From positions 124,001-188,000 of the forward strand of contig CACJQI010000001.1 of assembly GCA_902595535.1 (NCBI GenBank): a stretch of 64,000 nt of DNA, given 5' to 3'. Positions 131 to 21,069 of the stretch are shown here, in pieces. This stretch comes from an uncultured Pelagibacteraceae bacterium. GTDB taxonomy: Bacteria > Pseudomonadota > Alphaproteobacteria > Pelagibacterales > Pelagibacteraceae. Below the pieces are notes generated by a model. That model was given only the letters and a program-made list of their open reading frames with translations. It was not told where the DNA came from and did not search any database. The translations under genes were made by a program, and so were the position numbers. Numbering within the stretch: the stretch's first letter is position 1; each line of letters starts with the position of its first letter.

Positions 131-540
131 TGAATATTAAAGATCAAAAAGAGTTCCCTGTGGACTCAGCTCAACTTAAAGAAGTAAGGAATTTTGCAAG
201 AGGTCTTTTTGATCAAGTTCCAGAATTTGAAGATAATAGAGAGGAACTAGTTTTAGCATTAGCAGAGGCTGCTCAAAATATTGTCAAACATGCCTATAGT
301 GGTCAACCAAGTGGTGATACAATGAGAGTTGAGATTGAGTATCAAGATAAAGTTTTAAAAATGGAATTATTTGATAAAGGTAAACCTGTTATCCCCGAAA
401 ACATCAAGCCAAGAAAGTTAACAGATATTAAAGCTGGTGGATTAGGTACTTTCTTTATTGGTCAGATAATGGATGAAGTTGTTTTTAAAACTAATAAAGA
501 TGACTGGGTTAATCACTTAATCTTAACTAAAAGATTTTAA
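130..540 (+). CDS. HATPase (RsbW/SpoIIAB-like serine kinase or anti-sigma factor)
   Basis: This 136-residue protein is a lone GHKL-type ATPase domain of the size usual for RsbW-like partner-switching kinases. Residues about 35-55 (LVLALAEAAQNIVKHAY) form the N box that holds the Mg-ATP Asn. The later KAGGLGTFFIGQIMDEV segment is the glycine-rich ATP lid. There is no membrane segment or sensor domain. The ATG at 130 overlaps the stop of the STAS gene, so the two are translationally coupled; a TTG at 127 is a poorer alternative start. The family phosphorylates a STAS antagonist and holds a target protein. Two SpoIIE-type phosphatases at 16839-18842 and 19780-21069 are possible antagonists. The true target is not visible. 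Confidence 0.78.
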   Translation: MNIKDQKEFPVDSAQLKEVRNFARGLFDQVPEFEDNREELVLALAEAAQNIVKHAYSGQPSGDTMRVEIEYQDKVLKMELFDKGKPVIPENIKPRKLTDIKAGGLGTFFIGQIMDEVVFKTNKDDWVNHLILTKRF

Positions 541-1778: not shown

Positions 1779-1785
1779 TTTTTAT

Positions 1786-5081: not shown

Positions 5082-5541
5082 CTGACTCTCTTATCTGATT
5101 ATTAAAATCAATAATAATAAAAGACTTATCTTCTTTTTCAAAGATAGCTTCTGTTAATCTTAAATCTATAAATTTTATTTTTCCTAAATATTGATTAAGA
5201 TTTAAAGTAATAACATCTCCTGATGTATTTGTTAAACTTATATAGCTTTGATCTTTACCTGAAATTAAACCTGATAATTTAAAATTATACAAACTCATTT
5301 CATCTCTCTCTTCACCAGTTTCTGGATTTACTGATGAACTGCCCATGCCTTCATTACCAGCAAATGGATCATTTAAAGGAACTTCATCCTCATCTACTTG
5401 GCTTTTTTTACTCTCAATTTCTTTTGTAATCTCTTTTGCTTTTTCTACTAATTCAGTATTAGTGCTATGATTATCTGCAAATACAATTACAGATGATAGT
5501 AACAGTATGGTTAAGATTAAAATTTTCTTAAAAGAATTCAT
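5071..5541 (-). CDS. pilP: PilP-like periplasmic pilus alignment protein
   Basis: A protein of 156 residues with an N-terminal hydrophobic segment (about 7-22, ending VIVFADN) that reads as a Sec signal peptide or anchor. A charged, probably disordered linker at about 25-75 carries a DPFAG motif. The C-terminal domain (about 80-150) has a beta-rich pattern (LSGLISGKDQSYISL...GDVITLNLNQYLGKIKFIDL) like the homology domain of PilP/GspC that contacts the secretin. Overall similarity is weak. The call rests mostly on size, build and its position between pilO and the secretin, with start and stop overlapping both neighbours. No lipobox cysteine is seen, unlike classical PilP. Confidence 0.65.
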   Translation of the reverse strand: MNSFKKILILTILLLSSVIVFADNHSTNTELVEKAKEITKEIESKKSQVDEDEVPLNDPFAGNEGMGSSSVNPETGEERDEMSLYNFKLSGLISGKDQSYISLTNTSGDVITLNLNQYLGKIKFIDLRLTEAIFEKEDKSFIIIDFNNQIRESDEY

Positions 5542-6166
5542 CAGGTATTCCTACTATTGTTAATTCTCCTTGTGCAATTATCGCTCCAGTTGTATCATTT
5601 TGTACAACACTTATAGTCTCTTTGTCAAAGTTTAACATTTTATTAGATTTAGCTATAGATCTCTTAAACTTAATATATCCAAGAAAATTCCCTTTAATCT
5701 CATATTCAACTGGAATTTTATAATATGAAATATCTGTTTTGTTCAATAACTCCTCCGCTTGTTGAGCTACTCCACTTTTTAAAACTGGTTTAGGTTTTTT
5801 CTTTTGAATTTTAGAAATAGTAAGGCCATTTACGCCAGCATATCTGCTTAAACTCTGGTACAATCCTTCAACTTCTTCTTTAGAGTGAAATAACGTAGAA
5901 CTTTTTTTAAACTCAGGCTCAAGTTTTTTTAGTCTCTTTTTATTTAGAATAATTTCATTTTCAAATTGAACAATTTCATTTTGCTTTAAAACTTTTTCAT
6001 CATATAGAGCTTTTTTGTTTTTAACGATTGGATTTAAAATAGCGTAATAGCCAATTAAAAAAATTATAATTGCCGCAAAACCAATTCCAAATTTAATTAA
6101 TGTTTTTTTATCAATTTCTTTAAGCTTTTCTTTTAAATCACCAACATTAATATTTTTTAAATCCAT
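5528..6166 (-). CDS. pilO: PilO-like inner-membrane pilus alignment protein
   Basis: A protein of 212 residues from the chosen ATG at 6166, which overlaps the pilM-N stop by one base (TAATG). An upstream in-frame ATG at 6187 would lie inside pilM-N and is less likely. The build is that of PilO: a short cytoplasmic N-terminus, one membrane segment at about residues 25-45 (LIKFGIGFAAIIIFLIGYYAIL), a coiled coil near 50-95, then a ferredoxin-like periplasmic domain. PilO pairs with PilN to link the cytoplasmic PilM ring to PilP and the secretin. Sequence identity in this family is low, so position and topology carry the assignment. Confidence 0.8.
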   Translation of the reverse strand: MDLKNINVGDLKEKLKEIDKKTLIKFGIGFAAIIIFLIGYYAILNPIVKNKKALYDEKVLKQNEIVQFENEIILNKKRLKKLEPEFKKSSTLFHSKEEVEGLYQSLSRYAGVNGLTISKIQKKKPKPVLKSGVAQQAEELLNKTDISYYKIPVEYEIKGNFLGYIKFKRSIAKSNKMLNFDKETISVVQNDTTGAIIAQGELTIVGIPDEFF

Positions 6167-7881
6167 TATGCATTCTCCAATATACAAGCTACAACAAACC
6201 CTTTCATTGTGGGAGCATTTTGCGATTGTCCATCAGGAAGTGTCATTGTTGCTAATGATGCTTGCTTAATTAATTTTTTATTATTTAAATTACTTATTAA
6301 TTTTAAGATATCTTGGTCACTAAAAGCTGAGCCTTTTATGACGATTTGACTTGAGCCATTGTACTCAACTGACTCAAACCTAACTCTTTTTGGTACTGCA
6401 GATGCAATTTGAGCTAAAACTCTAAAACTCGCAGTTTTGTTTGACTTAATTGATTTGCTAATCTTAAGTGACTTTAATATTTTACCTACATCTTTTTCTA
6501 GTTTATTTTTTTCAAGTGTTCTGAGTTCATGTGTTTGAACGATTTCATCATAATCAACTAATTTTCCATTTAATTCTTTGATTTGCCAAAATGACAATCC
6601 AAACAATAATACATAGATTAATGAAACAACTCCAATCACACCTTTGAATGCAAAATTTGAAAACACTTTTGCTTTCTTTTGAGCCATCATGCTATCCCTA
6701 TTGGGCAATAGATTAATATTTTTTACTGCTGTCACAAATTTGTAATAACCAAAAACATCCAATTTTCTAAATGCTAAACCAATCACCGTGGAAAAGTATG
6801 ATCTATTTTGATAATTAACACTTTCCTCTAATTGTGCAGGAACTTTAATTTCTTTAATAGGATCTAATAAATCAAAACCAGTATTAGCTAAACTTTTTCT
6901 AAAAGTTTCAAGATAAGTATCAACATTAATTAAGTTTGAGACAACTTTTAAATTTCTAATTCTTTTTTCATACTTTGTTTCAAAATCTTGTATCGCTTGT
7001 TTAACTTGGGTTACATATCTTCTAACCAGAGCATCCATGTCTTCTTGGTTGTCGGAATTTAAAAGTGTGTTTCTATCTTGGCCTCGTATAAATATATCGG
7101 TAATGATCGGATTATTTTCATATAAAATCATTACATAATTTTCATCCAATCCAAATTCTAGAACTGCAGTAAGATTACTCTCTTCAATAGATCCGCCAAG
7201 CTGATTGATTTGGTCAACAGCAGATTTGAGTGCAAAACATTTTACATCAATAATAACTGCATTAAGTCCTCCTTTTTTGATAATTGATGTGTAGCTATTA
7301 ATATCTGATAGTTTTGAAGCAACAAATAAGATATCCATAGTATTTGCAGTAGAGTCTCTATTTATAACTTGATGAAAAACAGAATAGTCATTTAGATTGT
7401 CAGTTAGTTGAACTAAATTTTCCCATAGAGAATCTGTATCAATTGCCTTATTCAATTCTTCATCACTCATTAATGGTGCTGTTACTACTCTGATAATTGC
7501 GCTTGTAACTGGGATTGCAATTGCAGCATTTGATGTTTGTATTTTAGATTTTTGTAAAGCAATTTGTAATTGTTCCCCGTACTTGTCCGGATCATCTAAT
7601 ACACTTGAATTTGAGTCTGAATCTTGAATTTTATGGGTAAAAAATTTTTCTAAAACCCACTTATTTGATTTGTCAGTCGATAATTGAGCTAACCTAATTT
7701 CAGTAGGAGTTAACTCTACTCCAACTATTTCTTCTCCTTGAACTGCAGATTTTCCTAACCTGTTTTTAAAAAATTTACTAAAAAATCCCTCTTTCTTTTT
7801 TGTATCTTGAACTTGTGGGACGGGTTTTCCCTCATCACCTTTCGGTTTTTTTTTAAAAAGATTAGCAAAAGGATTTTTCAT
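6166..7881 (-). CDS. PilM-PilN fusion, inner-membrane alignment complex
   Basis: One 571-residue frame covers two proteins that are usually separate. Residues about 48-375 are the actin-like PilM fold (GVELTPTEIRLAQL start, later LTAVLEFGLDENYVMIL as a nucleotide-binding strand). Residues 389-395 are INLLPNR, the motif that normally forms the free N-terminus of PilN and docks into PilM. A membrane segment at about 414-433, a coiled coil and a PilN periplasmic domain (SFRVLAQIASAVPKRVRFESV) follow. The first 47 residues are lysine-rich and unlike PilM. It heads the minus-strand operon, directly upstream of pilO. No stop or frameshift separates the halves. Function in the PilMNOP complex is known for the families; the fusion is seen directly. 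Confidence 0.87.
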   Translation of the reverse strand: MKNPFANLFKKKPKGDEGKPVPQVQDTKKKEGFFSKFFKNRLGKSAVQGEEIVGVELTPTEIRLAQLSTDKSNKWVLEKFFTHKIQDSDSNSSVLDDPDKYGEQLQIALQKSKIQTSNAAIAIPVTSAIIRVVTAPLMSDEELNKAIDTDSLWENLVQLTDNLNDYSVFHQVINRDSTANTMDILFVASKLSDINSYTSIIKKGGLNAVIIDVKCFALKSAVDQINQLGGSIEESNLTAVLEFGLDENYVMILYENNPIITDIFIRGQDRNTLLNSDNQEDMDALVRRYVTQVKQAIQDFETKYEKRIRNLKVVSNLINVDTYLETFRKSLANTGFDLLDPIKEIKVPAQLEESVNYQNRSYFSTVIGLAFRKLDVFGYYKFVTAVKNINLLPNRDSMMAQKKAKVFSNFAFKGVIGVVSLIYVLLFGLSFWQIKELNGKLVDYDEIVQTHELRTLEKNKLEKDVGKILKSLKISKSIKSNKTASFRVLAQIASAVPKRVRFESVEYNGSSQIVIKGSAFSDQDILKLISNLNNKKLIKQASLATMTLPDGQSQNAPTMKGFVVACILENA

Positions 7882-8032
7882 ATAAACATTATTAATTTAA
7901 ACAATCATTATAATATAATATTAATTAATCAACTAATACTCGAATTTAATATCTTTGTGTTTATTATGGGGTAAATTATTATTTTAAGAGTTAATTATTT
8001 AAAAAATGTAGTACTAAAGTTAAAAAAATAAA
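7882..8032. promoter_or_regulatory. Divergent intergenic region between pilM-N and pilT
   Basis: This 151-base AT-rich stretch separates two divergent pilus units, so it must carry promoters for both the pilMNOPQBC operon and the pilT-prepilin-pilY1 set. Several TATAAT-like strings occur (for example TATAATATAAT near 7909-7919), but the composition makes any single box unreliable. No strong hairpin or clear operator was seen. Confidence 0.45.
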
Positions 8033-9049
8033 ATGTTTGAAAAATTAGAAGAGCTAGCAAAAAATAATAAGAAAATTTCAGATTTTCATATTAGATCTGG
8101 ATCTCCTTTAGCATACAGACAAACAGGTGAAATTGTAAAAGTAGCTGACACTAATGTTACGGCTCAAGATTTAAAAGATTTGATATCGATGAACTGTAAT
8201 GAAACTGAGACAGCAAGATTTAATGAAACTCACGAACTAGACTCAGCTGTAATGTTAAGTGGCTTAAGATTTAGAGCAAATTTTTATAAAACAATAAATG
8301 GACCTGCTGCAGTTCTTAGAAGAGTTGAAAGTAAAATTCCAGACATGGATCAATTTAATTTACCACAGGCATTATATGATATCGTAGATTTTCATAAAGG
8401 TTTAGTTTTAGTAACTGGGCCAACTGGCTCAGGAAAATCTACAACTCTTGCAGCAATTGTAAATGAAATTAATAAAACTAGAACTTCAAATATTATAACT
8501 GTTGAAGATCCAGTTGAGTTTATTCATAAAGACAATCAAAGTATTGTCTCACACAGAGAAGTTGGAAAACAAACTCAATCTTTTTCAGCAGCTTTAAAAG
8601 CAGCATTAAGAGAAGACCCAGATGTTATCTTAGTTGGAGAGATGAGAGATCTTGAAACAATCAGTTTAGCTTTAACGGCGGCTGAAACAGGACACTTAGT
8701 TTTTGGAACTTTGCACACAAGTGGTGCACCAAGTACCATCAATAGAATTATTGATGTATTTCCTCCCGAACAACAGGAACAAATCCGTGCACAAATTTCA
8801 ACATCATTAAAAATGGTAGTTACTCAAAGATTACTTAAAACTAGAGATGGTCAAGGTAGAGTTGGTGCATTTGAAATCATGAAATGTACTCCACCAATTC
8901 AAAACTTAATTAGAGAAGCAAAAATTCATCAAATTCCAAGTATCATGCAAACAGCAGTGAGAGATGGAATGATTACAATGGAAAAATCTCTGGAGGAATT
9001 GGTTAAATCAGGTAAAATAGATCCAGGTGCAGCAAAATCAGGACATTAA
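8033..9049 (+). CDS. pilT: Twitching motility / pilus retraction ATPase PilT
   Basis: The protein has 338 residues, the usual PilT length, and lacks the zinc tetracysteine of PilB. Walker A GPTGSGKS is at 129-136 and the Walker B region DPDVILVGEMRD is near 195-206. The ASP/His boxes (TVEDPVEFIH, GTLHTSGA) and a C-terminal LIREAKIHQIPS segment, the variant of the retraction motif in PilT proteins, are present. The enzyme depolymerises pili, driving twitching and DNA uptake. It heads the plus-strand pilus unit, divergent from pilM-N. The next gene starts inside its last 23 bases. Confidence 0.95.
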   Translation: MFEKLEELAKNNKKISDFHIRSGSPLAYRQTGEIVKVADTNVTAQDLKDLISMNCNETETARFNETHELDSAVMLSGLRFRANFYKTINGPAAVLRRVESKIPDMDQFNLPQALYDIVDFHKGLVLVTGPTGSGKSTTLAAIVNEINKTRTSNIITVEDPVEFIHKDNQSIVSHREVGKQTQSFSAALKAALREDPDVILVGEMRDLETISLALTAAETGHLVFGTLHTSGAPSTINRIIDVFPPEQQEQIRAQISTSLKMVVTQRLLKTRDGQGRVGAFEIMKCTPPIQNLIREAKIHQIPSIMQTAVRDGMITMEKSLEELVKSGKIDPGAAKSGH

Positions 9050-9743
9050 AGGTTTTACTCTTTTAGAATTATTGGTTGTAATCACACTTGTTGCAATCAT
9101 CTCTGCAGTAGCATATCCAAATTTTTCTTCATGGAAAAAAGAAAGAGAAGTAAGATCAGCAACAGAAAAAATTGCTGGTATGATTTCAAATGTTGCAACT
9201 CAAACACAAAGAGGAAATTTTTCTTACTCTCAATTTTGGGTATTACCCGTACCAAATCAAAGTACAGTTTTTTTTACTAAAGGAATGAAAAAAAATAATT
9301 TTACATCACTAATTAACTCTGGAGCGACACCAACTTGTAGAAGAGTTCAAAGTGGTCACTGGGATAGTTTAAATGATAAATCAATAAATATCATGGGAAC
9401 TACATTTAGAGATTATTATGAAGTTTACGATCCAGAGTCTGGTATTGATAACATTGAAGTTGCAACACACTTAAGTTTAGATTCTGCTATTTGTTTTGGA
9501 ACAAATGGAAGTTACTATAAAGCTGTTAATGGTTTATCAAAAGGAAGTAATACTAATATTAATATAGAGGGCGCACCAACTGCTAATTACATAATTATCT
9601 GCACTCTAGATAATGCTAAAGCATTTGGCCAAAAATGCCCAAGAAAATTAGGACTTGAAAGACCTGCCTATTTGGTGAAATGGTCAAGATTTGGTAACGT
9701 TACCAAATATAAATGGAGTGGAAGTGATTGGAATAGACAGTAA
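9027..9743 (+). CDS. Minor prepilin, GspH/FimT-like
   Basis: A protein of 238 residues starting at GTG (9027), inside the end of pilT. A short leader (MQQNQDIKG) is followed by FTLLELLVVITLVAIISAVAYPNF, a canonical type III signal. Cleavage is expected after Gly9, Glu falls at mature position 5, and a hydrophobic N-terminal helix follows. The globular part contains cysteines (TCRR, AICFG, IICTL, QKCPRK) that could form disulfides. Length and leader match FimT/FimU/GspH pseudopilins, which prime pilus assembly together with PilV, PilW and PilX. It is processed by the peptidase at 18839-19603. Confidence 0.85.
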   Translation: MQQNQDIKGFTLLELLVVITLVAIISAVAYPNFSSWKKEREVRSATEKIAGMISNVATQTQRGNFSYSQFWVLPVPNQSTVFFTKGMKKNNFTSLINSGATPTCRRVQSGHWDSLNDKSINIMGTTFRDYYEVYDPESGIDNIEVATHLSLDSAICFGTNGSYYKAVNGLSKGSNTNINIEGAPTANYIIICTLDNAKAFGQKCPRKLGLERPAYLVKWSRFGNVTKYKWSGSDWNRQ

Positions 9744-10335
9744 AAAAATAAAGCAAAAAGGAATTACTCTTATAGAAGCTTTAATTTCAACAGCAATTGT
9801 AGGCATAGGATTTATAGCTGTATTTCAAATGGTTAACTATTCAGTTACTTCAATAGATGTGTCTGGTGAGAGGACAAAAACAAATTATTTATCCTCAATG
9901 ATTGCTGAAGATTTAATCGGAGATCGCTTTACTCAAATTAAAGTTGGTGGCACTGATAAAAAGATTTACGAGTATTTGGCAGATAAAACTAAGCAAAATA
10001 AATTTGCTTGGAAAAGAACCCCTTCATTAAATTCAAATAAAAAATGTAAGCAAGAAACAGGGACCCCTTACAAAACTACTGATGTTACTATTACTAATAA
10101 AGAACACAAATGGAATCATAGATTTTCAAAAAGAATTAAATGTCGAGGGGTTAAAGATATTAAAGAGTTAAAAGTTTATGAAAGCTGCAGAAATAATGTC
10201 AAAGTTGATGGAAAAACTAGAGTTAATTGTCATTATAGAAATCAATTCCTATGGAATAAACATTACTTTGGCCGTATGGAAGTAAAATTAAATAACGGTA
10301 ACAAGAGTAAAATTTTATATTTCCGAATAAAATAA
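9724..10335 (+). CDS. pilV: Minor prepilin, PilV-like
   Basis: A protein of 204 residues from GTG at 9724. This start was chosen because GGAG at 9715-9718 sits 5 bases upstream as a ribosome-binding site; TTG at 9691 or GTG at 9718 are in-frame alternatives. The leader IDSKKIKQKG precedes ITLIEALISTAIVGIGFIAVFQM, with Glu at mature position 5. The C-terminal part is basic, with four cysteines. PilV_N-type leaders (TLIEALI/VA) and the position between GspH- and PilW-like genes support the name. It overlaps the previous gene by 20 bases and the next by one. Confidence 0.8.
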   Translation: MIGIDSKKIKQKGITLIEALISTAIVGIGFIAVFQMVNYSVTSIDVSGERTKTNYLSSMIAEDLIGDRFTQIKVGGTDKKIYEYLADKTKQNKFAWKRTPSLNSNKKCKQETGTPYKTTDVTITNKEHKWNHRFSKRIKCRGVKDIKELKVYESCRNNVKVDGKTRVNCHYRNQFLWNKHYFGRMEVKLNNGNKSKILYFRIK

Positions 10336-11129
10336 TGAAAAAGAAAAATTCATCAATAGCTGGTGTAACTTTAGTAGAAATATTAATTGGTATTGTCATA
10401 TCAATGATCATGATGGCAGCAATGTTCACTTCATATCAGGCAGTTAACAATAGTTATTCACAAGTAATAGACCGAGCAAAGATAAGTCAAACTGGTCGAA
10501 ATATTTTAGGCATGATTGTTAAAGACATTAGATTAGCAGGGTTTAAATATTTTGATGATATCAGTAAGACGCCAACAAATTATGTTCCGATTTATATCAC
10601 TAAAGCCTCTGGAACTGGATGCGATAAACTAGATATTATGTACTCTGATCGAAGAGTAAAACCTGGATCCTCTCCTAAAACATATGAGTACACTACTTAT
10701 AAAATTACTTATGAATGCAAAGCATCTAACATTGTTGATAAAAAAACAAAATTAAAAATTAATGCATTTGCAATTTATAAATCAAAAAGTAAATGGAATG
10801 GAAGTAATTGGGTAGCTCCTGCAACTTCTACTGATGATTTAATTTATAAAGATGAAATGATTGTTGATCACGTTCAAGATTTCATTCTGCTTCCAATTGA
10901 TGAAAAGGGAAAGATAATTGATCCAGCGCCAACTACTTTAACCGGTAGTAATAAAATTAAAGTAGTTGATATAATGATGTCGGTTAGATCACAAAGTCCA
11001 TTTTATAAAAAAGATAAATCATTTGAAAGTTTATCTTTAGGAAAAAAAAGTTCCAAACAATTTAATGATAAATTTTTGAGAGAACAAATTATTGTTTCTG
11101 CTCATACAAGAAATATGGGGTTACAATGA
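10335..11129 (+). CDS. pilW: Minor prepilin, PilW-like
   Basis: A protein of 264 residues. The leader MKKKNSSIAG is followed by VTLVEILIGIVISMIMMAAMF, with Gly before the cleavage site and Glu at mature position 5. The segment after the helix, RAKISQTGRNILGMIVKDIRLAGFKYF, closely matches the PilW pattern (repeated S/A..GR..L..DIR.AGF). The ATG overlaps the previous stop (TAATG) and its own stop overlaps pilX (ATGA), so these prepilins form one translationally coupled unit. PilW belongs to the minor-pilin priming complex. Confidence 0.85.
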   Translation: MKKKNSSIAGVTLVEILIGIVISMIMMAAMFTSYQAVNNSYSQVIDRAKISQTGRNILGMIVKDIRLAGFKYFDDISKTPTNYVPIYITKASGTGCDKLDIMYSDRRVKPGSSPKTYEYTTYKITYECKASNIVDKKTKLKINAFAIYKSKSKWNGSNWVAPATSTDDLIYKDEMIVDHVQDFILLPIDEKGKIIDPAPTTLTGSNKIKVVDIMMSVRSQSPFYKKDKSFESLSLGKKSSKQFNDKFLREQIIVSAHTRNMGLQ

Positions 11130-11872
11130 TTAAAAACCAAAAAGGTTTTGCAATGGTTTTGTCATTGGTGCTTTTATTAGCAATGTCATTAATGGGTGGT
11201 GCTTTAATATTAATTGCATCAGGCGACCACCAAGGGAATAATGACAGTGACCAATACCAACAAACTTTTTATGCTGCTGAAATGGGGCTTTTGGATGGTG
11301 AACAATATATTTTAAATCAAAAAAATGGGCCTTGGGATACATCTACTAATGCAAGAAATTTAGCAAAAAGTAATTTGCCAGAAAAAAATACTACTAAGTT
11401 TACTGGAGCTATGTACGCAAAAAATTACTCCAAAAAAGGTAAATTTGATTACAGATTAACTAGCACTAAAAAAAGATCAAAAAAATTTTTAGATACATCT
11501 GATACTTGTTTTAAAAGTTTTAAAGATATCGACAAAGATGATTTTTACGTAATTAAAGACGACAAAAATTTAAATGTTGCTCGAAGCATGAATGTAGGTG
11601 TACTTCTGGAAAACTCTTTTGCATCAGGAGGCACTGCTCAAGAAAAATTAGAAGCAACCAGGATGAAAAAGTTTTATTATGAATACTTCATTGAAAGAAT
11701 TGGAGCTGCTAACGTGCAACTAGTTGGATCCAGTATTAAATCAACTGCAACCGATGCCTCTAAAAACGGTTTAGCTTATCGGGTTTATTCCTGCGGTATT
11801 TATGGTGAAGACGGTGATAAAAACAAAATGATTGTTTCTTTAGAAAGTGTGGTGGTTGTTCCTAAAAACTAG
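11126..11872 (+). CDS. pilX: Minor prepilin, PilX-like
   Basis: A protein of 248 residues. The leader MIKNQKG is followed by FAMVLSLVLLLAMSLMGGALILIASGDHQGNNDSDQ and then FYAAEMGLLDGEQYIL, the A-A-E-x-G-L-L-xGE signature of PilX_N proteins. Mature position 5 is Leu rather than Glu, as in PilX-type minor pilins (GspK-like tip subunits). Four cysteines occur in the globular domain. It is coupled by ATGA to pilW. A 75-base gap with no visible hairpin follows before the next gene. Confidence 0.8.
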   Translation: MIKNQKGFAMVLSLVLLLAMSLMGGALILIASGDHQGNNDSDQYQQTFYAAEMGLLDGEQYILNQKNGPWDTSTNARNLAKSNLPEKNTTKFTGAMYAKNYSKKGKFDYRLTSTKKRSKKFLDTSDTCFKSFKDIDKDDFYVIKDDKNLNVARSMNVGVLLENSFASGGTAQEKLEATRMKKFYYEYFIERIGAANVQLVGSSIKSTATDASKNGLAYRVYSCGIYGEDGDKNKMIVSLESVVVVPKN

Positions 11873-11947: not shown

Positions 11948-12481
11948 ATGAAAAAAATTATACTTATTTTATTCATCTCTTTAATTAGCATTTCTGCAAA
12001 TGCAGCTTGTAAATTTGATTTAGATTTTGGAGATGATGCTTCAAAAGTTTCAGATAAATACGGACCACCATTGAAAGAAATGTTCGAGGAACTTTCATTT
12101 ATTCCAGTTGCAGCTGATGATGTGTGTCCCAATCAAAATTTAAAAGATATTGCAATTGAATATCGTTTCTTAAATGAAAAATTAGCAGCAATTAATTTAA
12201 TTGTTTTAAATGATGAAAAAAATTCAGCTTCAGAAAAATTAACTTTAATGAAATATGCGAAAAGAGTTTATGGAGATTTTGATACCGGTCAAAACCCAAA
12301 AGCTTATGTTGGTTTTGAAGTGTTTGAGAAAAATAATTATTATGTAGTTTATCAAAAATTAGTTGAAGATAAAATGATCAATGAGCAACTTTATATTTCA
12401 ACCGATGAATATGATCAATTGCTTGGTGAAGTTTATAACAAAGCTGAAGAAGAAATGGATACAGGACCTAAGGAAAATTAA
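11948..12481 (+). CDS. Secreted protein of unknown function in the pilus locus
   Basis: A protein of 177 residues with a clear Sec signal peptide (MKKIILILFISLISISANA, predicted cleavage before ACKF). The mature protein is acidic, has two cysteines (near residues 21 and 61) and no recognisable domain. It contains FGDDASKVSDKYGPP and YISTDEYDQLLGEVYNKAEEE, the latter probably helical. It lies between pilX and pilY1, and its last base overlaps the first base of the pilY1 ATG (TTAATG). The context suggests a periplasmic accessory to PilY1 or pilus assembly. That role is inference only; I do not recognise the family. Confidence 0.75.
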   Translation: MKKIILILFISLISISANAACKFDLDFGDDASKVSDKYGPPLKEMFEELSFIPVAADDVCPNQNLKDIAIEYRFLNEKLAAINLIVLNDEKNSASEKLTLMKYAKRVYGDFDTGQNPKAYVGFEVFEKNNYYVVYQKLVEDKMINEQLYISTDEYDQLLGEVYNKAEEEMDTGPKEN

Positions 12482-15400
12482 TGAAATTAAAATTTATAAT
12501 ATCTACTTTAGTTTTATTTTTTAGTTTCGTTTCAACAAATGTAAGTTCAAAAATTTTACCTCCTGGAACAGGAACACAAGCAGACGTTCCCTCAAACCTT
12601 TTAATATTGTTAGATAAATCTGGAAGTATGGGTTGGAGAATGAGAAATGCTCAAAGTCTTAATTACATGCACGTATCTGCAACCGATAGCTCAGGAAATA
12701 TTTATGTAGCACAATATTCTAATTTTGGTGTTAAAAAATATAACTACTCTGATATGTCAAATGATACTTCATGGGGATATAATGGTGGGGTTGCTGGAAG
12801 AAGTGGACCTTGTAGAACTTATTATCCTTATGGAATTAAAATTCATGACGGTATTATCTACGTAGGTAGTTACTCTGATCGAAGAATTAGAAAAATTAGA
12901 GTTTCTGATGGATCTTGCTTAGGCAGCATTACCCCAGGTTCTAATTGGGCTTATGTAAGATCAATAGATATTCATAATGGACATTTGTATGCTTCAACCA
13001 ATTCTGGTTTGTTTACACAAAACTTAAGCAATGGTGCTAGTAAAATCTGCCCTAACACTAGTAGAAATGAATGGAGATATTCTATGACATTAACAGGCAG
13101 TGGTAGCTATTTGTATAGTCATCATGGCTATAGAATGTACAGAGGAACTCTGACAAGTTCTGGTTCAAACCTTTGTCCAACGAGTGTAAAAAAATATAAT
13201 GACTATACTATGTCATATGGCTACGGTATGACGGCCCACCCTACCAATCCAAATGAATTATATTTTATGTCGAGAGGACGAAACTCAATATATAAAATAA
13301 CTGTAAATTCTAATGGTACAGGTCATACTATTAATTGGCAAAAAGGAAGGTACGGATACAATAGACAATCAACTGCAACCCAAAATTACTTTTATTACCC
13401 ATGGGGTATTCATTATGATGATGATAATGATCGATTAATTGTATCAGGATATAGCGCAAAAAAAATTCAAGTATTTGATAGTGACGGTGTCTTTATTAAA
13501 GATAAAGGTGGTGCCGCTGCTGTGACAAGGATGGCTGCAGCACACGCTGCTATTAAAGCAATTGTAACTGATTCTAATTTAACATCAGGGGTTAATTTTG
13601 GCTTTGGATATTGGTCAAGTAGATGGAGTGCTCGAAATTGGCCACCTGGATTTAGTTCTTGGTCAGGAAATATCACAACTGGTTCTGCTAGACCTTGTGA
13701 TACTCAAAACTGCTTAAAAGTGAGGGTTCATAAAGATGGTGCTGCCCAAATTAATAAAATAATTTCATCAGTAAATGCCCGTGGAGGAACGGATGCTTAT
13801 ACTTTTATGAAAATTGCTAGTGATTATTATAATCACGGAAGTTTAAGTCCAATTGATAGTAAATCTCCATGTCAAAAAAGTTATGTGATAGTGATTGGTG
13901 ATGGAGATTGGTATAATCACAATAGTGCTGAAAACTTAGCAAAAAATTTATTAAAGAAAAAAATTCCAACCTTTGCAGTTGCATTTGGAACAGGGATTAG
14001 TTCAAGTGGGTTAAGGAACTTTAATAGGTTAGCAGCAGCAGGTGGAACTACCAAAGCGATCATTGCTCCAACTGCGGCAGCTTTAAAAACTCAATTACAA
14101 GCAGCAATCTCACAAATCATTGCATCTAAACTTTCATTTACTGCACCGGCAATTACTGCAACATTAAATGAAGATGGCTCTTTATATCAAGCTCAATTTG
14201 ATTATGCACAAAATAAAGAGTGGAATGGAACTATTAAAAGAACCAAGATTGATAAAAATGGAAAACTATATCCAAAAGATAAAGATAACTGGAGTGCAGT
14301 AGATAAATTACCGAAATCAGGTAATAGAAAAATTTGGAGTGCAATTCCAAATACTGATTACACAACAAATTATAACAACTGGACTACGAGTAATGCTACT
14401 GCAATAGATGATTTAGTAACCTTGATGGGATTTGATGTTCAAGATTACCATAGAAAAACTAATAACTCTGATGGATCAACAAACAATAAACGTTGTGCTA
14501 ATGCATCAGGAGTTGCTGATGGAACTGATGATGATCTTAAAGGTTTGATTAATTTTATTCGAGGAACTGATTACTTTGACTATGATGCTGATTGTAATTT
14601 AACTGAAGATAGACCAAACCCAATGGGAGATGTTTATCATTCTCAACTAGTAACTGTTGGACCTCCTACTGCTGAAACTGCATTTACAAGTGAGAACCAA
14701 GAAAGTTATTGGAGAGCTACCAAAGGTTACGATAAGTGGGCAGAAACACAAAGAAGTAGAAAAACAATGATTTATGTTGGCTCTAACAGTGGAGTATTAC
14801 ACGCATTGAATGCAGATACTGGTATTGAAGAATGGGGATTTATTCCTCCATTTGTTGCCTCAAGATTAACAAGAGTAATGAATACAAACTTAAACCAAGT
14901 AAGCCCAGCTGCTAAAGGTGGAAGTAATGCAATTTACGGTGTAGATGGTTCCCCTGTTCAACATGATATTTGGTTCAAAAGTCCTCATGATACTTCAGAG
15001 GCATGGCATACTACATTATTTATACCTTATGGAAGAGGTGGAAGTGGATTTACGGTGTTAGATGTAACAGATCCTGTAAAACCATTACACTTAGTCTCTA
15101 TTTATAACGATCTAGTAAATAATAAAGTATATCGAATGACCCATGATCAACAAATTGAAATGTATGATTATATTGGTAGATCATATCCTTTATCTGAATT
15201 ACTGGAGGCAAAACGTGCAGGTGATAACTACGCTCCTGACAAAGGTAGTGAAGTTGCCTCAAAACAAGTTTGTAATGATGGCGGAACTTCATATTGCTAT
15301 AAGAGTAAGAAATGGACTTTAGAAGTTCAAAACTTAACTAAGAAAGACATAACCGTCATGGAAGATGGTAAAGATATAACTGGCTCTATTACAATCACTT

Positions 15401-16635
15401 ACGATTCTGCAAAAAATACTGTGATTAACTTTAATAAAGAAATGCAGTTTGATGCAGATGAGACTACTGGTAATAAACAAAATTCTCCAATAGGTATAAC
15501 TATAAAATCAGGAGCAGTTGGTACTGGTGTATTAACTGATCCAGAGTGGGATTATAGTTCTTTAGGTGAAACATGGTCAGATCCTAGAATATTTAGACTA
15601 CCAAACAAGGGTGCAGGTGATAATAACCGTGCAGATGATATTAACGTAGCTGTTATGGGTGGAGGATTTGGAACTCAATTCTCAGGAGCTGGAAGTAACG
15701 TCATGATTATCAATATGCAAGACACTGATAATTATGGAAAATTGGAAAAAATAATTCAAATTGAAGATACTGCCGCAAGTGATATTGATAATTCCGTTCC
15801 ATCATCATTAACAGTAATTACTCCAGATAAAGCAAAAGGTGCTAACTTTGCAGGCTCTTTAGTTTACGCAGGAGATCTTGAAGGTAAAATTACAAAAATT
15901 AATTTAACAAATATGTCAGCAGATCCTTTAGGGGTGCCAATTAAATTATATGATCACACTACTTTATTTAAAGCAGGTGCTACTAAAACAAATGGAAGAT
16001 ATATGTATCACGCTGTAGATGCAGCAATTGGTCAATCAACCAGTGACTTATGGTTATATGCAGGAACCGGTGATGCACAAAGATTAAATGATAGAACAAC
16101 TGGAACACAAAACATGATGATTGGAATTAGAGATATTGATTATCCAAATTATAGATCTATTGCAACGCCAGCAAAAGCTGCAGATATTACTAAATGTCAA
16201 AACACTACTAACGATACAGCTGGTAAACCATGTAGAGTTCAAGATAAAGATCTGGGTTGGTATGTAACATTAAAAGATTTTGCAAAAGTCAGTGCACAAC
16301 CAAAAGTTAATAATGGTTATGTTTATTTCCCAGTTTACAGACCATCTAAATCGGTTAACAAATGTGATCTTGGAGATGCATTTATCTGTGCGGTTGATGA
16401 TGAATGTGGAACCCATGATAGTTTCATAGGCCTTGAAAAATCTCGTTCAGAACAATCTGGATCTAAATGTAGATTTGTTGGTAAAGGGGTGTTGTCAGAA
16501 ATTGTACTATTTGCAGGTAAAATCTTTGCAAATATCTCTGGTAAATCTTTAGGAGCAGTTACTGACCTTGTAACTCTAGATGCAGCAACAGGTGAGTCAA
16601 GCACTTACAGAAAATCTTGGCGAGAGAATAATTAA
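12481..16635 (+). CDS. pilY1: PilY1-like pilus tip/adhesin protein with split von Willebrand A domain
   Basis: A protein of 1384 residues with an N-terminal signal peptide (about 1-23). The vWA MIDAS motif DKSGSM is at 45-50. The rest of the vWA domain resumes only near residue 345 (AAAVTRMAAAHAAIKAIV), with the MIDAS Thr in RGGTD near 434-438 and VIVIGDGDW near 469-477. Between them, about 60-342 is a propeller-like insertion with repeated GxxYVAxYSNFGVKKY / GIIYVGSYSDRRIRKI / LIVSGYSAKKIQVF units. The C-terminal half has the PilY1 hallmark IYVGSNSGVLHALNADTG near 763-780, with FIRGTDYFDYDAD and GDVYHSQ just before it. The family controls pilus retraction, calcium response and adhesion. It is the last gene of the plus-strand pilus unit. 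Confidence 0.9.
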   Translation: MKLKFIISTLVLFFSFVSTNVSSKILPPGTGTQADVPSNLLILLDKSGSMGWRMRNAQSLNYMHVSATDSSGNIYVAQYSNFGVKKYNYSDMSNDTSWGYNGGVAGRSGPCRTYYPYGIKIHDGIIYVGSYSDRRIRKIRVSDGSCLGSITPGSNWAYVRSIDIHNGHLYASTNSGLFTQNLSNGASKICPNTSRNEWRYSMTLTGSGSYLYSHHGYRMYRGTLTSSGSNLCPTSVKKYNDYTMSYGYGMTAHPTNPNELYFMSRGRNSIYKITVNSNGTGHTINWQKGRYGYNRQSTATQNYFYYPWGIHYDDDNDRLIVSGYSAKKIQVFDSDGVFIKDKGGAAAVTRMAAAHAAIKAIVTDSNLTSGVNFGFGYWSSRWSARNWPPGFSSWSGNITTGSARPCDTQNCLKVRVHKDGAAQINKIISSVNARGGTDAYTFMKIASDYYNHGSLSPIDSKSPCQKSYVIVIGDGDWYNHNSAENLAKNLLKKKIPTFAVAFGTGISSSGLRNFNRLAAAGGTTKAIIAPTAAALKTQLQAAISQIIASKLSFTAPAITATLNEDGSLYQAQFDYAQNKEWNGTIKRTKIDKNGKLYPKDKDNWSAVDKLPKSGNRKIWSAIPNTDYTTNYNNWTTSNATAIDDLVTLMGFDVQDYHRKTNNSDGSTNNKRCANASGVADGTDDDLKGLINFIRGTDYFDYDADCNLTEDRPNPMGDVYHSQLVTVGPPTAETAFTSENQESYWRATKGYDKWAETQRSRKTMIYVGSNSGVLHALNADTGIEEWGFIPPFVASRLTRVMNTNLNQVSPAAKGGSNAIYGVDGSPVQHDIWFKSPHDTSEAWHTTLFIPYGRGGSGFTVLDVTDPVKPLHLVSIYNDLVNNKVYRMTHDQQIEMYDYIGRSYPLSELLEAKRAGDNYAPDKGSEVASKQVCNDGGTSYCYKSKKWTLEVQNLTKKDITVMEDGKDITGSITITYDSAKNTVINFNKEMQFDADETTGNKQNSPIGITIKSGAVGTGVLTDPEWDYSSLGETWSDPRIFRLPNKGAGDNNRADDINVAVMGGGFGTQFSGAGSNVMIINMQDTDNYGKLEKIIQIEDTAASDIDNSVPSSLTVITPDKAKGANFAGSLVYAGDLEGKITKINLTNMSADPLGVPIKLYDHTTLFKAGATKTNGRYMYHAVDAAIGQSTSDLWLYAGTGDAQRLNDRTTGTQNMMIGIRDIDYPNYRSIATPAKAADITKCQNTTNDTAGKPCRVQDKDLGWYVTLKDFAKVSAQPKVNNGYVYFPVYRPSKSVNKCDLGDAFICAVDDECGTHDSFIGLEKSRSEQSGSKCRFVGKGVLSEIVLFAGKIFANISGKSLGAVTDLVTLDAATGESSTYRKSWRENN

Positions 16636-16838: not shown

Positions 16839-18842
16839 TTAAAGTTTAATTCCAAGAGCAGTAATATCATCTCTAAGTTTAAAACCTTTTTCAGTTAAAA
16901 TTTTTGTTGCATGACTTATAATTGTTTCAGGAGAAGTAGTATTTAATTTTTTTATTTCACTTTCAAGACCAGCTACTTCGAGTTCTTTTCCTTCATCAAC
17001 ATACCCTTCTGTCACTCCATCGGTGTAGATTAAAATAGTTTTATCTGAGATATCCATTGTAGTAGTTTTAAAAAAACTCTCATCTTTAACAGGCATCAAT
17101 CCCATTGGAGGTAGAGTTGATTTTACATATTCGAAATTAAAGTTTGGATCTAACACCATCATCGGTTCGTGACCCATATTAATAAACTCCATCTCTTTTT
17201 TTTCTAAATTTATTTTCCCTAAAATAACTGTTATAAACATTGCTTGATAAGAAGCATCTTTAACTTGATTGTTCATATACAAAGCTGTTTTTGCAACAGA
17301 CGACTCCATTTTTGCAAGGGATCTGAATACGGCTGCAGCATTTGCCATTAATATTCCAGCTTTAACACCTTTCCCTGTTACGTCTCCAAGTATAAAATAA
17401 ATCTCATTATCACTGACTTGATAATAATCATAATAATCTCCTGATACATCTTTTGCAGGTGTGTTTTGTGCAAATATATATTTCTCAATTTTTTTATTAT
17501 TTGGGAATAATTTCTTTTGAACCTCTCCAGCTATCTCTCGCTCTTTTTTCAAAATCGATTGCTTTTTGTCATTTTCAATAGCAATAGAATTTTCTTCTAA
17601 ATATCTAAAATATAATGAAGTCATAAATGCTAATGTTCCAGCAATACTTGAAAATAAAAAATCTAAATAAAAATTAAATTGATAAATAATTATACTGGAT
17701 AAATTAATTACAAAAATTGAACCTACAAAAAAAATAATACTAAATTTTGGCTTAATTATCATTGGGATAAAAATTAAGAAAATTAATAATAATAAAAAGA
17801 TAATATTTTCTGCTGATTGAGTATAAATATTTCTAATGATGCTCTCATTCTTTAAAATATTATCAATAATGTGAGCATGAATTTCAACTCCAGGAACATA
17901 ATTTCCATTGGAGATTTTAACAATATCAAAAAGTGCTTGAGCAGAAGAACCTATAAGAATTATATTATTTTCAATTCTTTTTTGGTCAAAATCATTATTT
18001 ATTACATCAACAGCAGAGACATAATTATCTTTAGAAAATTTCTTAAACTTAACGTTAATTACTGCATTTTGATCGCTCGGAATTGTATTTTTTCTAGTCT
18101 TAATTAATTCAATTCCATTTTTATTGCTTTTAACTAACAAGTTTTTTTGACCCGTCGCCACTCTAACCGTTTCAAGTGCTAGAGAAGGCCATATTCTGTT
18201 ATCTATATTGTAGAGAACAGGGACATTTCGAATTACACCATCGATACTAGGTATTAATGAAATTGAACCGATACCAGTTGCAGCTCTGCTTATTTCTTCA
18301 AGAGAAATTATTTTATTTTTAAATTTATATATAAAATTTTTTGGGTTTTCTCCTTTAGCTATTATTCTAGCTTTAGGTTTAGAGTCATTTTTAACAAAAT
18401 TATCATTAGGTTCTCCCAATATAGGTAAAATTATTTTTGAATTTTTTATACTTTCTACAAAGATTTTATTCGTGTCTGATACTTCTACATCTATTAATTT
18501 ATTGCTCTCTTTTTGAAGTTGTAATAATAAATCTTTTGGATTTTGCTTATCATCTTCACTAAATACTATATCAAATGCAATAGCTTTAGGATTGTGTTGA
18601 TTTAAGTTTTTTAAAATTTTTGAATATACGTCTCTTCGCCAAGGAAATTGGCCAACCTTAGCTATACTTTTTTCATCAATATCAACAATAGTAATGTTTT
18701 TTACTTCACCTCTATTAAATATTTTTTGATAAAAATCATAATTAATAAATGAAATTTTTTGAATAATAGGAGGATTAATAAATTTTATTATTATCAAAAA
18801 TAAAAAAACACCAGCTAAATAAATATATTTTTTATCAATCAT
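16839..18842 (-). CDS. CHASE2-domain sensor with SpoIIE-type PP2C phosphatase
   Basis: A protein of 667 residues. A membrane helix at about 7-24 leads into an extracytoplasmic CHASE2 domain (about 28-335; VDIDEKSIAKVGQFPWRRDVYSKIL and AIAFDIVFSE are typical). Three further membrane helices lie at about 346-362, 368-388 and 391-411. After a short helix, a cytoplasmic SpoIIE/RsbU phosphatase spans about 435-667. Metal-binding motifs are SGDYYD (467-472), GDVTGKG (486-492), YTDGVTEG and the final RDDITALGIKL. The family dephosphorylates STAS antagonists. It overlaps the prepilin peptidase stop by four bases, tying this sensor to pilus biogenesis. The substrate may be the STAS protein at the window start (inference). 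Confidence 0.88.
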   Translation of the reverse strand: MIDKKYIYLAGVFLFLIIIKFINPPIIQKISFINYDFYQKIFNRGEVKNITIVDIDEKSIAKVGQFPWRRDVYSKILKNLNQHNPKAIAFDIVFSEDDKQNPKDLLLQLQKESNKLIDVEVSDTNKIFVESIKNSKIILPILGEPNDNFVKNDSKPKARIIAKGENPKNFIYKFKNKIISLEEISRAATGIGSISLIPSIDGVIRNVPVLYNIDNRIWPSLALETVRVATGQKNLLVKSNKNGIELIKTRKNTIPSDQNAVINVKFKKFSKDNYVSAVDVINNDFDQKRIENNIILIGSSAQALFDIVKISNGNYVPGVEIHAHIIDNILKNESIIRNIYTQSAENIIFLLLLIFLIFIPMIIKPKFSIIFFVGSIFVINLSSIIIYQFNFYLDFLFSSIAGTLAFMTSLYFRYLEENSIAIENDKKQSILKKEREIAGEVQKKLFPNNKKIEKYIFAQNTPAKDVSGDYYDYYQVSDNEIYFILGDVTGKGVKAGILMANAAAVFRSLAKMESSVAKTALYMNNQVKDASYQAMFITVILGKINLEKKEMEFINMGHEPMMVLDPNFNFEYVKSTLPPMGLMPVKDESFFKTTTMDISDKTILIYTDGVTEGYVDEGKELEVAGLESEIKKLNTTSPETIISHATKILTEKGFKLRDDITALGIKL

Positions 18843-19603
18843 CCAAATAATAAATTTTTATATTGTTCTATAAAGATTATATACAAAATGCATCCTATAA
18901 TAATAAAAGGGCCAAATGGAATTTCTGATGAAAACTTTTTACTTTTATTTATTAAACTGGGCAAAACAGTAATCAATGCTACGATTGAAGAGCTAAATAT
19001 TACAAATGGTATCGCAATCCAGCCAAACCAAAAACCTATTGCAGATAATAATTTAGCATCTCCTAATCCCATTCCCTCTTTGTTTCTTAAAACTTTATAT
19101 ATAAAGATAATTGCCCAAATAATTCCATATCCAAATACTCCACCAATTAGAGAGTTGATATAATTTGGAAATAATTCATTTAAATTTGGATCAAAAGATT
19201 TTACAAAACCCAAAATCATTAAAGGAAAAGTAAGGCCATTTGGAATTATATAATATTTTAAATCAATAAAAAAAATTATAATAAATGTTAAGGCTAAGAT
19301 TATAAACAACAGCGTTGTAATCGTTATTCCATAAAAAAAGTAAGCTGCAACAAAAGAAAAAACACTTAAAAGTTCAACAAGTAGATATTGTATTGATATT
19401 TGCTTTTTACATTTCCTGCATTTTCCTTGAATAAACAAATAAGAAAGAATTGGTATATTATCATACCAAGAAATTTGTATTTTACATTTAGGACAGTATG
19501 ATCTACCAGAAACTACCCCCTTTTCCTGAGGAAGTCTATAAATACAAACATTAGCAAAACTTCCCCAAAGTCCTCCCATTACAATGATGAAAATAAAATC
19601 CAC
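18839..19603 (-). CDS. pilD: Prepilin peptidase / N-methyltransferase (A24 family)
   Basis: A protein of 254 residues with about eight membrane helices. The N-terminal methyltransferase-associated zinc site has paired cysteines (YCPKC and GKCRKCKK). The two catalytic aspartates are visible in IDLKYYIIPNG and in the family signature GMGLGDAKLL. The enzyme cleaves the leader of the prepilins encoded at 9027-11872 and methylates the new N-terminal residue. It is transcribed away from the GAF-phosphatase gene and is coupled by ATGA overlap to the CHASE2-phosphatase downstream. Confidence 0.93.
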   Translation of the reverse strand: MDFIFIIVMGGLWGSFANVCIYRLPQEKGVVSGRSYCPKCKIQISWYDNIPILSYLFIQGKCRKCKKQISIQYLLVELLSVFSFVAAYFFYGITITTLLFIILALTFIIIFFIDLKYYIIPNGLTFPLMILGFVKSFDPNLNELFPNYINSLIGGVFGYGIIWAIIFIYKVLRNKEGMGLGDAKLLSAIGFWFGWIAIPFVIFSSSIVALITVLPSLINKSKKFSSEIPFGPFIIIGCILYIIFIEQYKNLLFG

Positions 19604-19779: not shown

Positions 19780-21069
19780 ATGCTCTTTTTTAAAACAAAA
19801 AAACCCATTCTTAATGAAACAAGAAATGAAGCTCAAGATAACGTTGACTTACAAATTATAAATAAGATGAATCAAGAGTTTGCAATTTCTCTTGATTTAA
19901 AAGAAACTTTAAATACAGCTCTTAAAATAATTATTACAAGATTAAATGCACAAGCTGCAAATGTTTTTTTAATAAATAATAAAACAAAAAAATTTGAATG
20001 TATTGCATCTCTTAATCAAGAACACTTAGATGAATATCAGCTTGATTTAAAGGATGGTGTCATGGGTAGAGCAGTTGACCAAAGAAAATGTATCCGTGTT
20101 GGAAATGTAAGAAAAGATGTTAGAGAAATAGCTGAATTTTATTTTGATTTAGATAATAAAACAAATTTTACAACTTATTCAGTTCTATGTTCACCACTAA
20201 TAGCTGCCAATGATTGTATCGGTGTTATTCATTGTTTAAATAAAAAAACAGATGAAAAATTATTTATCGAAGATGATCGAAAACTTTTAGAATTACTATC
20301 CACTCCTGCAGCACTTGCTATTCGAAATGCAAAAATGGCTCAGGAAATGGTTGAACAAAATAAAATACAAAAAGAAGTTGAAATTGTTGGTGAAATCCAA
20401 AAATCTCTTTTATCTTCAAACAAAAAAGAACCTTTTCCGTTAGCAGGGATTAATATTCCTGCAAAAGTTGTGTCAGGAGATTTTTATAATTTTAATGACC
20501 TAGGTGAGGGAAAATATGGATTTGGTGTAGCTGATGTATCTGGTAAAGGAATAAAGTCCTCGTTGTTAATGTCAAAAGCTTCAAGTTTATATAGCTGCTT
20601 AAGTAAAACAAATTTTTCACCAGGCAATTTGCTCACTCAATTAAATAATGAAATATGTGAAACAATTTCAAGAGGTATGTTTGTAACTATGCTAATTGGT
20701 ATTTATGATAGTAATTCGAATGAACTGTTGTTATCTAATGCTGGTCATGAACCACCAATTATCATGAATGAAGATAATAATTTTTCAAATTTTGAAGAAG
20801 CTGGACCTCCTCTAGGAATTATAGAAAAAACAGAATACAAAGAATATAAGATAAGTTTTAAAAAAAGCTCAATGTATATTTTTACCGATGGTATCACTGA
20901 GATAAAAAATCCTGAAGGAAATGAATTAGGATCAAAAGGATTTCAAAACTATATTACTAAATTTAGAGACAAACCAAATAATGAAAGATTGAAATTAATT
21001 ATTGATAATGTTTTAGGTTCTAAATATATCCAGAAAGATGATTTAACAATCGTTGTCCTAGACTCTTAA
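19780..21069 (+). CDS. GAF-domain SpoIIE-type PP2C phosphatase
   Basis: A cytoplasmic protein of 429 residues without membrane segments. An N-terminal GAF domain spans about 35-190 (LKETLNTALKIIITRLNAQAANVFLINNK, then DGVMGRAV and GVIHCLNKK). A short helical linker leads to the SpoIIE phosphatase at about 205-429. Metal-site motifs are VSGDFYNF, GVADVSGKGIKSSLLMS, FTDGITEIKNPEG and QKDDLTIVVL. This is the RsbU-like architecture that turns on partner switching when a small ligand or stress is sensed. It is divergent from the prepilin peptidase unit and convergent with the dadA-like gene. Ligand unknown. Confidence 0.88.
   Translation: MLFFKTKKPILNETRNEAQDNVDLQIINKMNQEFAISLDLKETLNTALKIIITRLNAQAANVFLINNKTKKFECIASLNQEHLDEYQLDLKDGVMGRAVDQRKCIRVGNVRKDVREIAEFYFDLDNKTNFTTYSVLCSPLIAANDCIGVIHCLNKKTDEKLFIEDDRKLLELLSTPAALAIRNAKMAQEMVEQNKIQKEVEIVGEIQKSLLSSNKKEPFPLAGINIPAKVVSGDFYNFNDLGEGKYGFGVADVSGKGIKSSLLMSKASSLYSCLSKTNFSPGNLLTQLNNEICETISRGMFVTMLIGIYDSNSNELLLSNAGHEPPIIMNEDNNFSNFEEAGPPLGIIEKTEYKEYKISFKKSSMYIFTDGITEIKNPEGNELGSKGFQNYITKFRDKPNNERLKLIIDNVLGSKYIQKDDLTIVVLDS

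Follow-up and report, generated by a model that had tools for sequence, protein, structure and literature searches.

PilY1 is described as a tip protein of the type IV pilus, where it sits with minor pilins; in the Kingella homologue PilC1 the MIDAS has a part in adhesion, and in P. aeruginosa a change to the MIDAS alters how a pilU mutant moves (PMC12607626, PMC12607857). A view of the family as a carrier bearing an effector, with the C-terminal propeller as the carrier, has already been published (PMC8179133). Proteobacterial PilY1 proteins of the P. aeruginosa type combine a C-terminal PF05567 propeller with an N-terminal vWA domain containing a MIDAS, and have a long insert between DxSGSM and helix alpha-1 (126–300 residues in 14 sequences). 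The SAR11 protein analysed here shares this layout, but the insert of the P. aeruginosa type contains, as far as sequence searches go, neither NHL nor any other propeller signal.

Of the pilus proteins that we found described with a beta-rich domain interrupting a vWA, CpaL of Caulobacter comes closest; unlike SAR11 PilY1 it is pilin-like, and its insert is described as two beta-barrels (residues 204–384), not as a propeller, and lies ~40 residues past the MIDAS (160–164) (PMC12607857). Streptococcal RrgA and PilB also resemble SAR11 PilY1 in having a pilus vWA with arms that protrude on either side of its MIDAS, but the arms are described as small, one in PilB being a four-stranded sheet and none a whole propeller, and RrgA belongs to unrelated sortase-assembled pili (PMC8179133). 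In alpha-I integrins, as in SAR11 PilY1, a vWA-type domain and a beta-propeller are nested in one chain, with the MIDAS as an adhesion site (PMC10659397). The nesting in SAR11 PilY1, a propeller within a vWA domain, is the inverse of theirs, and common descent is not implied. In integrins it is the vWA that is inserted into the propeller, and the propeller and the MIDAS meet. We know of no NHL propeller nested in a vWA domain, and in the literature searched we found neither a paper joining PilY1 and NHL repeats nor a description of the SAR11 insertion. NHL may be among the 68 PilC/PilY1 architectures counted in one survey (PMC8179133). SAR11 PilY1 has already been listed by annotation (PMC3686209), and SAR11 pilus genes near an autotransporter adhesin are mentioned elsewhere (PMC12636525).

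A SAR11 pilY1 gene in a type IV pilus locus

The window, by which we mean the whole 64,000-nt stretch of DNA that was analysed, belongs to a 1.4-Mb genome that is 96% complete and has one match to the PilY1 protein. All 35 related loci in named genomes come from Pelagibacteraceae or Ca. Pelagibacter, that is, from SAR11. We identify the pilY1-like ORF (Table 1) as SAR11 PilY1 because it matches PF05567 and because minor-pilin-like genes and a type IV pilus machine accompany it, both lying upstream of it in the window. The PF05567 match reached 50.3 bits (cut-off 28.1) in a scan of the C-terminal segment and 46.2 bits in the genome search, and was absent from the hit list of the whole-protein scan. 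It bears out the second propeller that the preliminary description had placed in the C-terminal half, and this propeller presumably extends beyond the match towards the C terminus. Membership of the family would place the protein at the pilus tip, and its hydrophobic N terminus is probably a signal peptide.

An acidic loop adjoins the C-terminal propeller on its N-terminal side and is, by pattern, a candidate calcium loop. Calcium motif 1, Dx(D/N)xDGxxD, had no match in the PilY1 of the window, in which this looser loop, DYDADCNLTED, occupies residues 700–710. Motif 1 is described as common but not universal among PilY1/PilC proteins, and so is not defining (PMC13190605).

Among the four minor-pilin-like genes, two exceeded the N_methyl cut-off, a third reached 19.4 of 21.2 bits and the fourth matched PilX_N below the cut-off (17.4 of 25.5 bits). 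The machine genes encode PilC-like (T2SSF), PilB-like (T2SSE with MshEN), PilQ-like (secretin) and PilT/PilU-like (second T2SSE) proteins, together with a PilO that scored 21.5 of 22 bits.

Table 1 Features of the pilY1 locus, in positions of the window.
Feature	Position	Strand	Description
Type IV pilus machine genes	537..9049	.	Pfam: T2SSF, T2SSE with MshEN, secretin, PilO, PilM+PilN, T2SSE
PilM–PilN ORF	6166..7881	-	571 aa
Four minor-pilin-like genes	9027..11872	+	Pfam N_methyl / PilX_N matches
ORF immediately 5′ of pilY1	11948..12481	+	177 aa
pilY1-like ORF	12481..16635	+	1384 aa; hydrophobic N terminus, split vWA, linker, C-terminal PilY1 propeller
vWA part 1, strand beta-1 and MIDAS loop	12592..12642	+	residues 38–54; DKSGS at 12613–12627
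NHL-type six-bladed propeller insert (predicted)	12643..13509	+	residues 55–343; Pfam NHL, AF2, VIA-align
vWA part 2, alpha-1 to last helix	13510..14148	+	residues 344–556; T437 at 13789–13791, D474 at 13900–13902
Acidic loop DYDADCNLTED	14578..14610	+	residues 700–710; EF-hand-like spacing, pattern only
PF05567 PilY1 beta-propeller match	14623..15072	+	residues 715–864; 50.3 bits, cut-off 28.1
Probable PP2C-type phosphatase	16839..18842	-	CHASE2-SpoIIE
Probable prepilin peptidase gene	18839..19603		
Probable PP2C-type phosphatase	19780..21069	+	GAF-SpoIIE-looking

A predicted propeller nested in the vWA domain

MIDAS residues were assigned from the known DxSxS...T...D pattern. DKSGS at residues 45–49, T437 (in GGTDA) and D474 (in IGDGD) form a complete set, and D45, S47, S49, T437 and D474 are invariant in 18 aligned sequences. 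Helix alpha-1, TRMAAAHAAIKAIV (TRMAAAH), begins at T349, which leaves ~290 residues between it and DKSGS, a gap of the size first noted. The accompanying expectation that alpha-1 follows the MIDAS within ~20 residues is right for vWA domains generally but not for PilY1, in which a long insert is often found in this position.

On the uncut protein, the Pfam VWA models matched only the part after the insert and stayed below both cut-offs, with VWA_2 at 18.4–19.7 bits. When residues 26–54 were joined to 345–560, VWA_2 scored 29.7 bits against a cut-off of 27, its highest-scoring stretch spanning the joint; the VWA model, with the insert omitted, fell just short (23.4 of 23.8 bits), and VWA_2 on residues 343–556 alone had no match listed. 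The structure predicted for residues 342–610 alone is a weak model (mean pLDDT 63). It matched vWF A3 best (Z 14.9, rmsd 2.6 Å, 165 residues) and integrin I domains as well, its first aligned residue falling at 152–156 of integrin alpha-1 I domains and at 142–143 of CD11b I domains. We take DxSxS to occupy positions 151–155 and 140–144 of these domains, respectively. Because the I-domain alignments start within or just after DxSxS, we place the break in the vWA at the end of the metal loop. The flanks of the insert are predicted to form a vWA domain.

The stretch first singled out, 12658–13506, encodes residues 60–342 of the ORF. On the insert alone, Pfam detected one NHL repeat at 21.9 bits (cut-off 20); the score was 20.2 bits on residues 26–610 and 16.9 bits in the whole protein. 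Sequence matches of the insert in the PDB included NHL domains from Thin, TRIM71 and TRIM2/3. AlphaFold2, supplied with the 18-sequence alignment, predicted for residues 55–343 a total of 23 strands of at least three residues in six groups, with ten-residue pLDDT means of 71–94, mostly above 80; the fourth strand of blade 1 was only partly formed. In VIA-align, the best among the matches listed was the NHL domain of TRIM71 (Z 28.2, rmsd 2.1 Å over 243 residues, model positions 31–307 or residues 56–332), and all 50 matches listed had Z of at least 23.4. The insert is thus predicted to share six blades with the NHL propellers of TRIM71, Thin and the PknD sensor (Z 24–28), but differs from them in its weak repeat consensus and in four cysteines (111, 146, 190 and 232) that are invariant in the 18 sequences. 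A search for NHL/SMP-30 repeats had been suggested at the outset; the Pfam and TRIM71 matches favour NHL, and SMP-30 fits less well.

The predicted propeller starts with the first strand of blade 1 and finishes with the fourth strand of blade 6, so its two ends should be near each other, as is required of a domain inserted into a loop. The orientation of the propeller relative to the vWA is not fixed in the AF2 model (pTM 0.58). The initial reading, in which a propeller breaks into the vWA after the MIDAS and before alpha-1, is upheld by the domain searches, by two predicted structures and by the conservation seen across the order, and neither an unrelated fold nor an uninterrupted vWA arose in the predicted model. 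On the strength of these models, the nested-propeller anatomy of SAR11 PilY1 is near certain.

The insertion point in PilY1 proteins outside the order

PF05567 was found in 48 of 219 genomes of the phylum, one of them the window's own. From the 62 PF05567 places listed outside the window's genome we took 40, together with the locus in genome G881. A MIDAS-like motif was recognized by pattern in 25 outgroup ORFs, two of which (L133 and L137) were dropped as spurious-looking, leaving 23. In 14 of these, 126–300 residues separate the MIDAS from a helix motif, NFANWYSYYRxR, that we equate with alpha-1 because of its position before beta-2. Another two (L139 and L147) have a helix directly before beta-2 and 226 and 207 residues, respectively, between MIDAS and beta-2, so that an insert at the MIDAS–alpha-1 point was located in 16 of the 23. 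This rules out an insertion point unique to SAR11, and because the point is common in outgroup PilY1 proteins we regard it as an old feature of the family. Three further proteins (L117, L125 and L141) have 300–336 residues from the MIDAS to the DG motif, a distance that does not place the excess, and four have a short metal loop of 33–46 residues from the MIDAS aspartate to beta-2. Three of these four, L146, L149 and L150, carry a very large insert further along the vWA, as profile gaps indicate; in L146, 729 residues lie between the MIDAS and the DG motif.

The survey of other PilY1 proteins that had been suggested at the outset thus finds the insertion point shared and the 14 scanned inserts without NHL: Pfam gave nothing NHL-like in them at E 0.1. 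A profile of the SAR11 insert had no match at E 1e-3 in any ORF of the 43 loci L113–L155 (L153 and L154 being fragments); it matched two loci of the order (L157 and L158) and three NHL-protein loci that had been fetched as such. With the N-terminal profile, 22 of 398 phylum genomes matched: apart from the window's own, 20 did so on the propeller half and one, G881, on the vWA half. The same profile matched four of 385 class genomes: the window's own, G252 and G430 on the propeller half, and G123, whose contig starts after the insert, so that the propeller region lies outside its sequence. No NHL-in-vWA arrangement outside the order was seen in these phylum and class searches, which are a weak test, and two short peptide patterns confirmed no viral relatives in viral_contigs. 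Judged from these sequence comparisons, the NHL propeller as the filling of the insertion point appears to be restricted to Pelagibacterales in the sample examined.

Recurrence within Pelagibacterales

The comparison within the order covered 65 complete ORFs representing 54 distinct proteins, the window's own included, as some genes had been fetched twice. The distance from the MIDAS aspartate to the beta-2 motif is 320–479 residues in the 56 ORFs in which the pattern located both. This long spacing, set against the 33–46 residues of the four short-loop outgroup proteins, shows that the insertion is neither chance nor an assembly error. Among the remaining nine ORFs, four (three genes) have alpha-1 at residue 350–360, L070 has an insert seen on reading and L157 one detected by profile; the last three are L074, L078 and L079.

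NHL matches are clearer in two order-level relatives (36.2 bits in L066 and 24.3 bits in L068). There was no NHL match in the long relative L069, and matches at E 0.01 were obtained in 6 of the 16 members of set A2, from which we conclude that erosion has weakened the repeat signal in many members. The alignment suggests that members without an NHL match are propellers too. PF05567 itself is patchily distributed, occurring in 62 of 197 genomes of the order (window's own included) and in 56 of the 149 more complete ones.

One locus, L080 (G037:C2:45000-57500), has two neighbouring pilY1 genes, one with a frame of 1402 aa and the other with one of 1542 aa; the latter combines a DRTFS MIDAS (DxTxS) with the longest insert measured; genome G488 has two PF05567 places too. 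A long form (L069–L079 and L083; frames of 1616–1684 aa) has larger inserts, with 390–412 residues from MIDAS to beta-2 in the 8 of 12 that were measured, and a MIDAS that is mostly DSSxS.

Divergence of the insert

Mean pairwise identity among the 18 sequences is 45% in the insert, 72% in the rest of the vWA and 75% in the next 49 residues; among four stretches compared, none is less conserved than the insert. We estimated dN/dS for four regions by the Nei–Gojobori method with our own script. The insert had the highest value in all ten close pairs, which overlap in sequences; it ranged from 0.13 to 1.41, against 0.02–0.13 for the C-terminal propeller, and exceeded 1 in only one pair. For the window compared with its two nearest, L033 and L050, the insert was the highest region (0.64 and 0.48) and the C-terminal propeller gave 0.09 and 0.07, a difference with p 9e-10 and 2e-9, respectively, in Fisher tests on rounded counts. 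The contrast between the insert and the rest of the vWA was weaker (p 0.025 and 0.11). In two more distant pairs, in which dS is saturated, the insert tied with the N terminus (L031, 0.22) or was not the highest region (L032, 0.16). The raised dN/dS of the insert may reflect relaxed constraint.

Hypervariability of the top face of the propeller was significant only in the window trio (26/80 versus 5/52, p 0.003), with p 0.83, 0.17 and 0.16 in three other clades, and is not claimed. The insert tree and the C-terminal tree disagree (AU p 2.6e-76 and 2.7e-4, 18 sequences). In a control, the insert, the rest of the vWA and three C-terminal thirds each rejected the trees of the other four; recombination is therefore gene-wide with nothing specific to the insert, and exchange of the insert as a cassette was rejected. 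The divergence of the insert does stand out, its mean distance being 0.101 versus 0.039–0.059.

Proposed role of the nested propeller

On balance, we favour a role for the nested NHL propeller of SAR11 type IVa PilY1 as a recognition head that chooses what the pilus tip grips, an expectation we base on a conserved metal platform carrying a fast-changing propeller on its metal face. We suggest that the C-terminal propeller would act as the carrier, docking on the minor-pilin complex, and that the vWA would be a conserved metal-binding platform from whose metal-site face the NHL propeller would hang, setting the target of the tip. A ligand would be held either by the propeller on its own or at a site that propeller and MIDAS share, and pilus retraction would load the propeller–vWA joint. 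The carrier/effector view of PilY1 would thus make the nested propeller the SAR11 effector. Domain make-up, insertion point, recurrence in the order and faster protein evolution of the insert are computed results; the recognition role, the shared propeller/MIDAS site and the force response are what we infer. The anatomy is compatible with the idea in the preliminary description that a module for sensing or binding sits next to the metal site, and the raised dN/dS favours it. By analogy with integrins, the ligand site could possibly be a composite of propeller and MIDAS. A bolder version, which we hold to be rather unlikely, is that SAR11 PilY1 is an independently arisen, single-chain integrin-like head that binds its ligand between variable propeller loops and the MIDAS metal with an affinity set by retraction load, the MIDAS–alpha-1 loop being a general socket for different heads (a propeller in SAR11, other folds elsewhere).

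The propeller might instead act mechanically on the MIDAS loop, as a lever or clamp through which load opens, closes or unfolds the vWA; its job would then be to sense force, not to recognize a ligand. In P. aeruginosa, normal force-tied c-di-GMP and biofilm responses are reported to need the vWA region (aa 48–368) and, within it, Cys152 (PMC8806160), and the PilY1 MIDAS is given as residues 55–59 (PMC12607626). If the layout there equals that of L114 and L115, in which the MIDAS lies at ~57 and the alpha-1 motif 207–218 residues later, Cys152 would fall in an insert at the same point. The invariant cysteines of the SAR11 insert also suit such a device, but conservation would be expected of it and the insert is less conserved than the other three stretches, which makes a purely mechanical part doubtful in our view. 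The same lack of conservation weighs against a role in assembly, in which the propeller would touch minor pilins or the secretin and help to prime or gate the pilus: although PilY1 and minor pilins are reported to prime pilus assembly (PMC7541494), such contacts should be conserved, and the carrier role already belongs to the C-terminal propeller (PMC8179133), so we consider this very improbable.

Fast change could also arise if phages or grazers target the tip and the propeller changes to evade them, its own ligand being unimportant. Type IV pili are common phage receptors, and both the high dN/dS of the insert and the gene-wide recombination would accord with escape. Yet members across the order retain the insertion point and, if their NHL signal is still recognizable, the fold as well, which is more than one would expect of a mere decoy, and we judge this explanation unlikely. 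That the nested propeller is absent altogether, through artefact or misreading, we regard as next to impossible, as it is contradicted by the Pfam, AF2, VIA-align, vWA-fold and MIDAS-spacing results.

SAR11 bacteria are among the most abundant marine bacteria and are usually seen as free-living and non-adhering. With the propeller as a recognition head, the rapidly changing, propeller-headed tip protein at the end of this type IV pilus locus suggests that certain SAR11 cells hold on to something specific. A variable module in the loop after the metal site may be a general rule of PilY1, and such a rule would agree with surface sensing in P. aeruginosa having been mapped to that region.

Other genes at the locus

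PilM and PilN are normally encoded by separate genes; in the window a single ORF holds PilM_2 (54–258) and PilN (487–565). The ORF immediately 5′ of pilY1 had no Pfam match listed at E 10; its N terminus probably indicates secretion, and its product is a possible partner in the tip complex. Downstream of pilY1, the probable prepilin peptidase gene lies between the two probable phosphatase genes (Table 1), and this gene and the GAF-SpoIIE-looking phosphatase were both recognized by reading the sequence alone. With the phosphatase pair beside pilY1, an outside signal could be relayed from the pilus locus.
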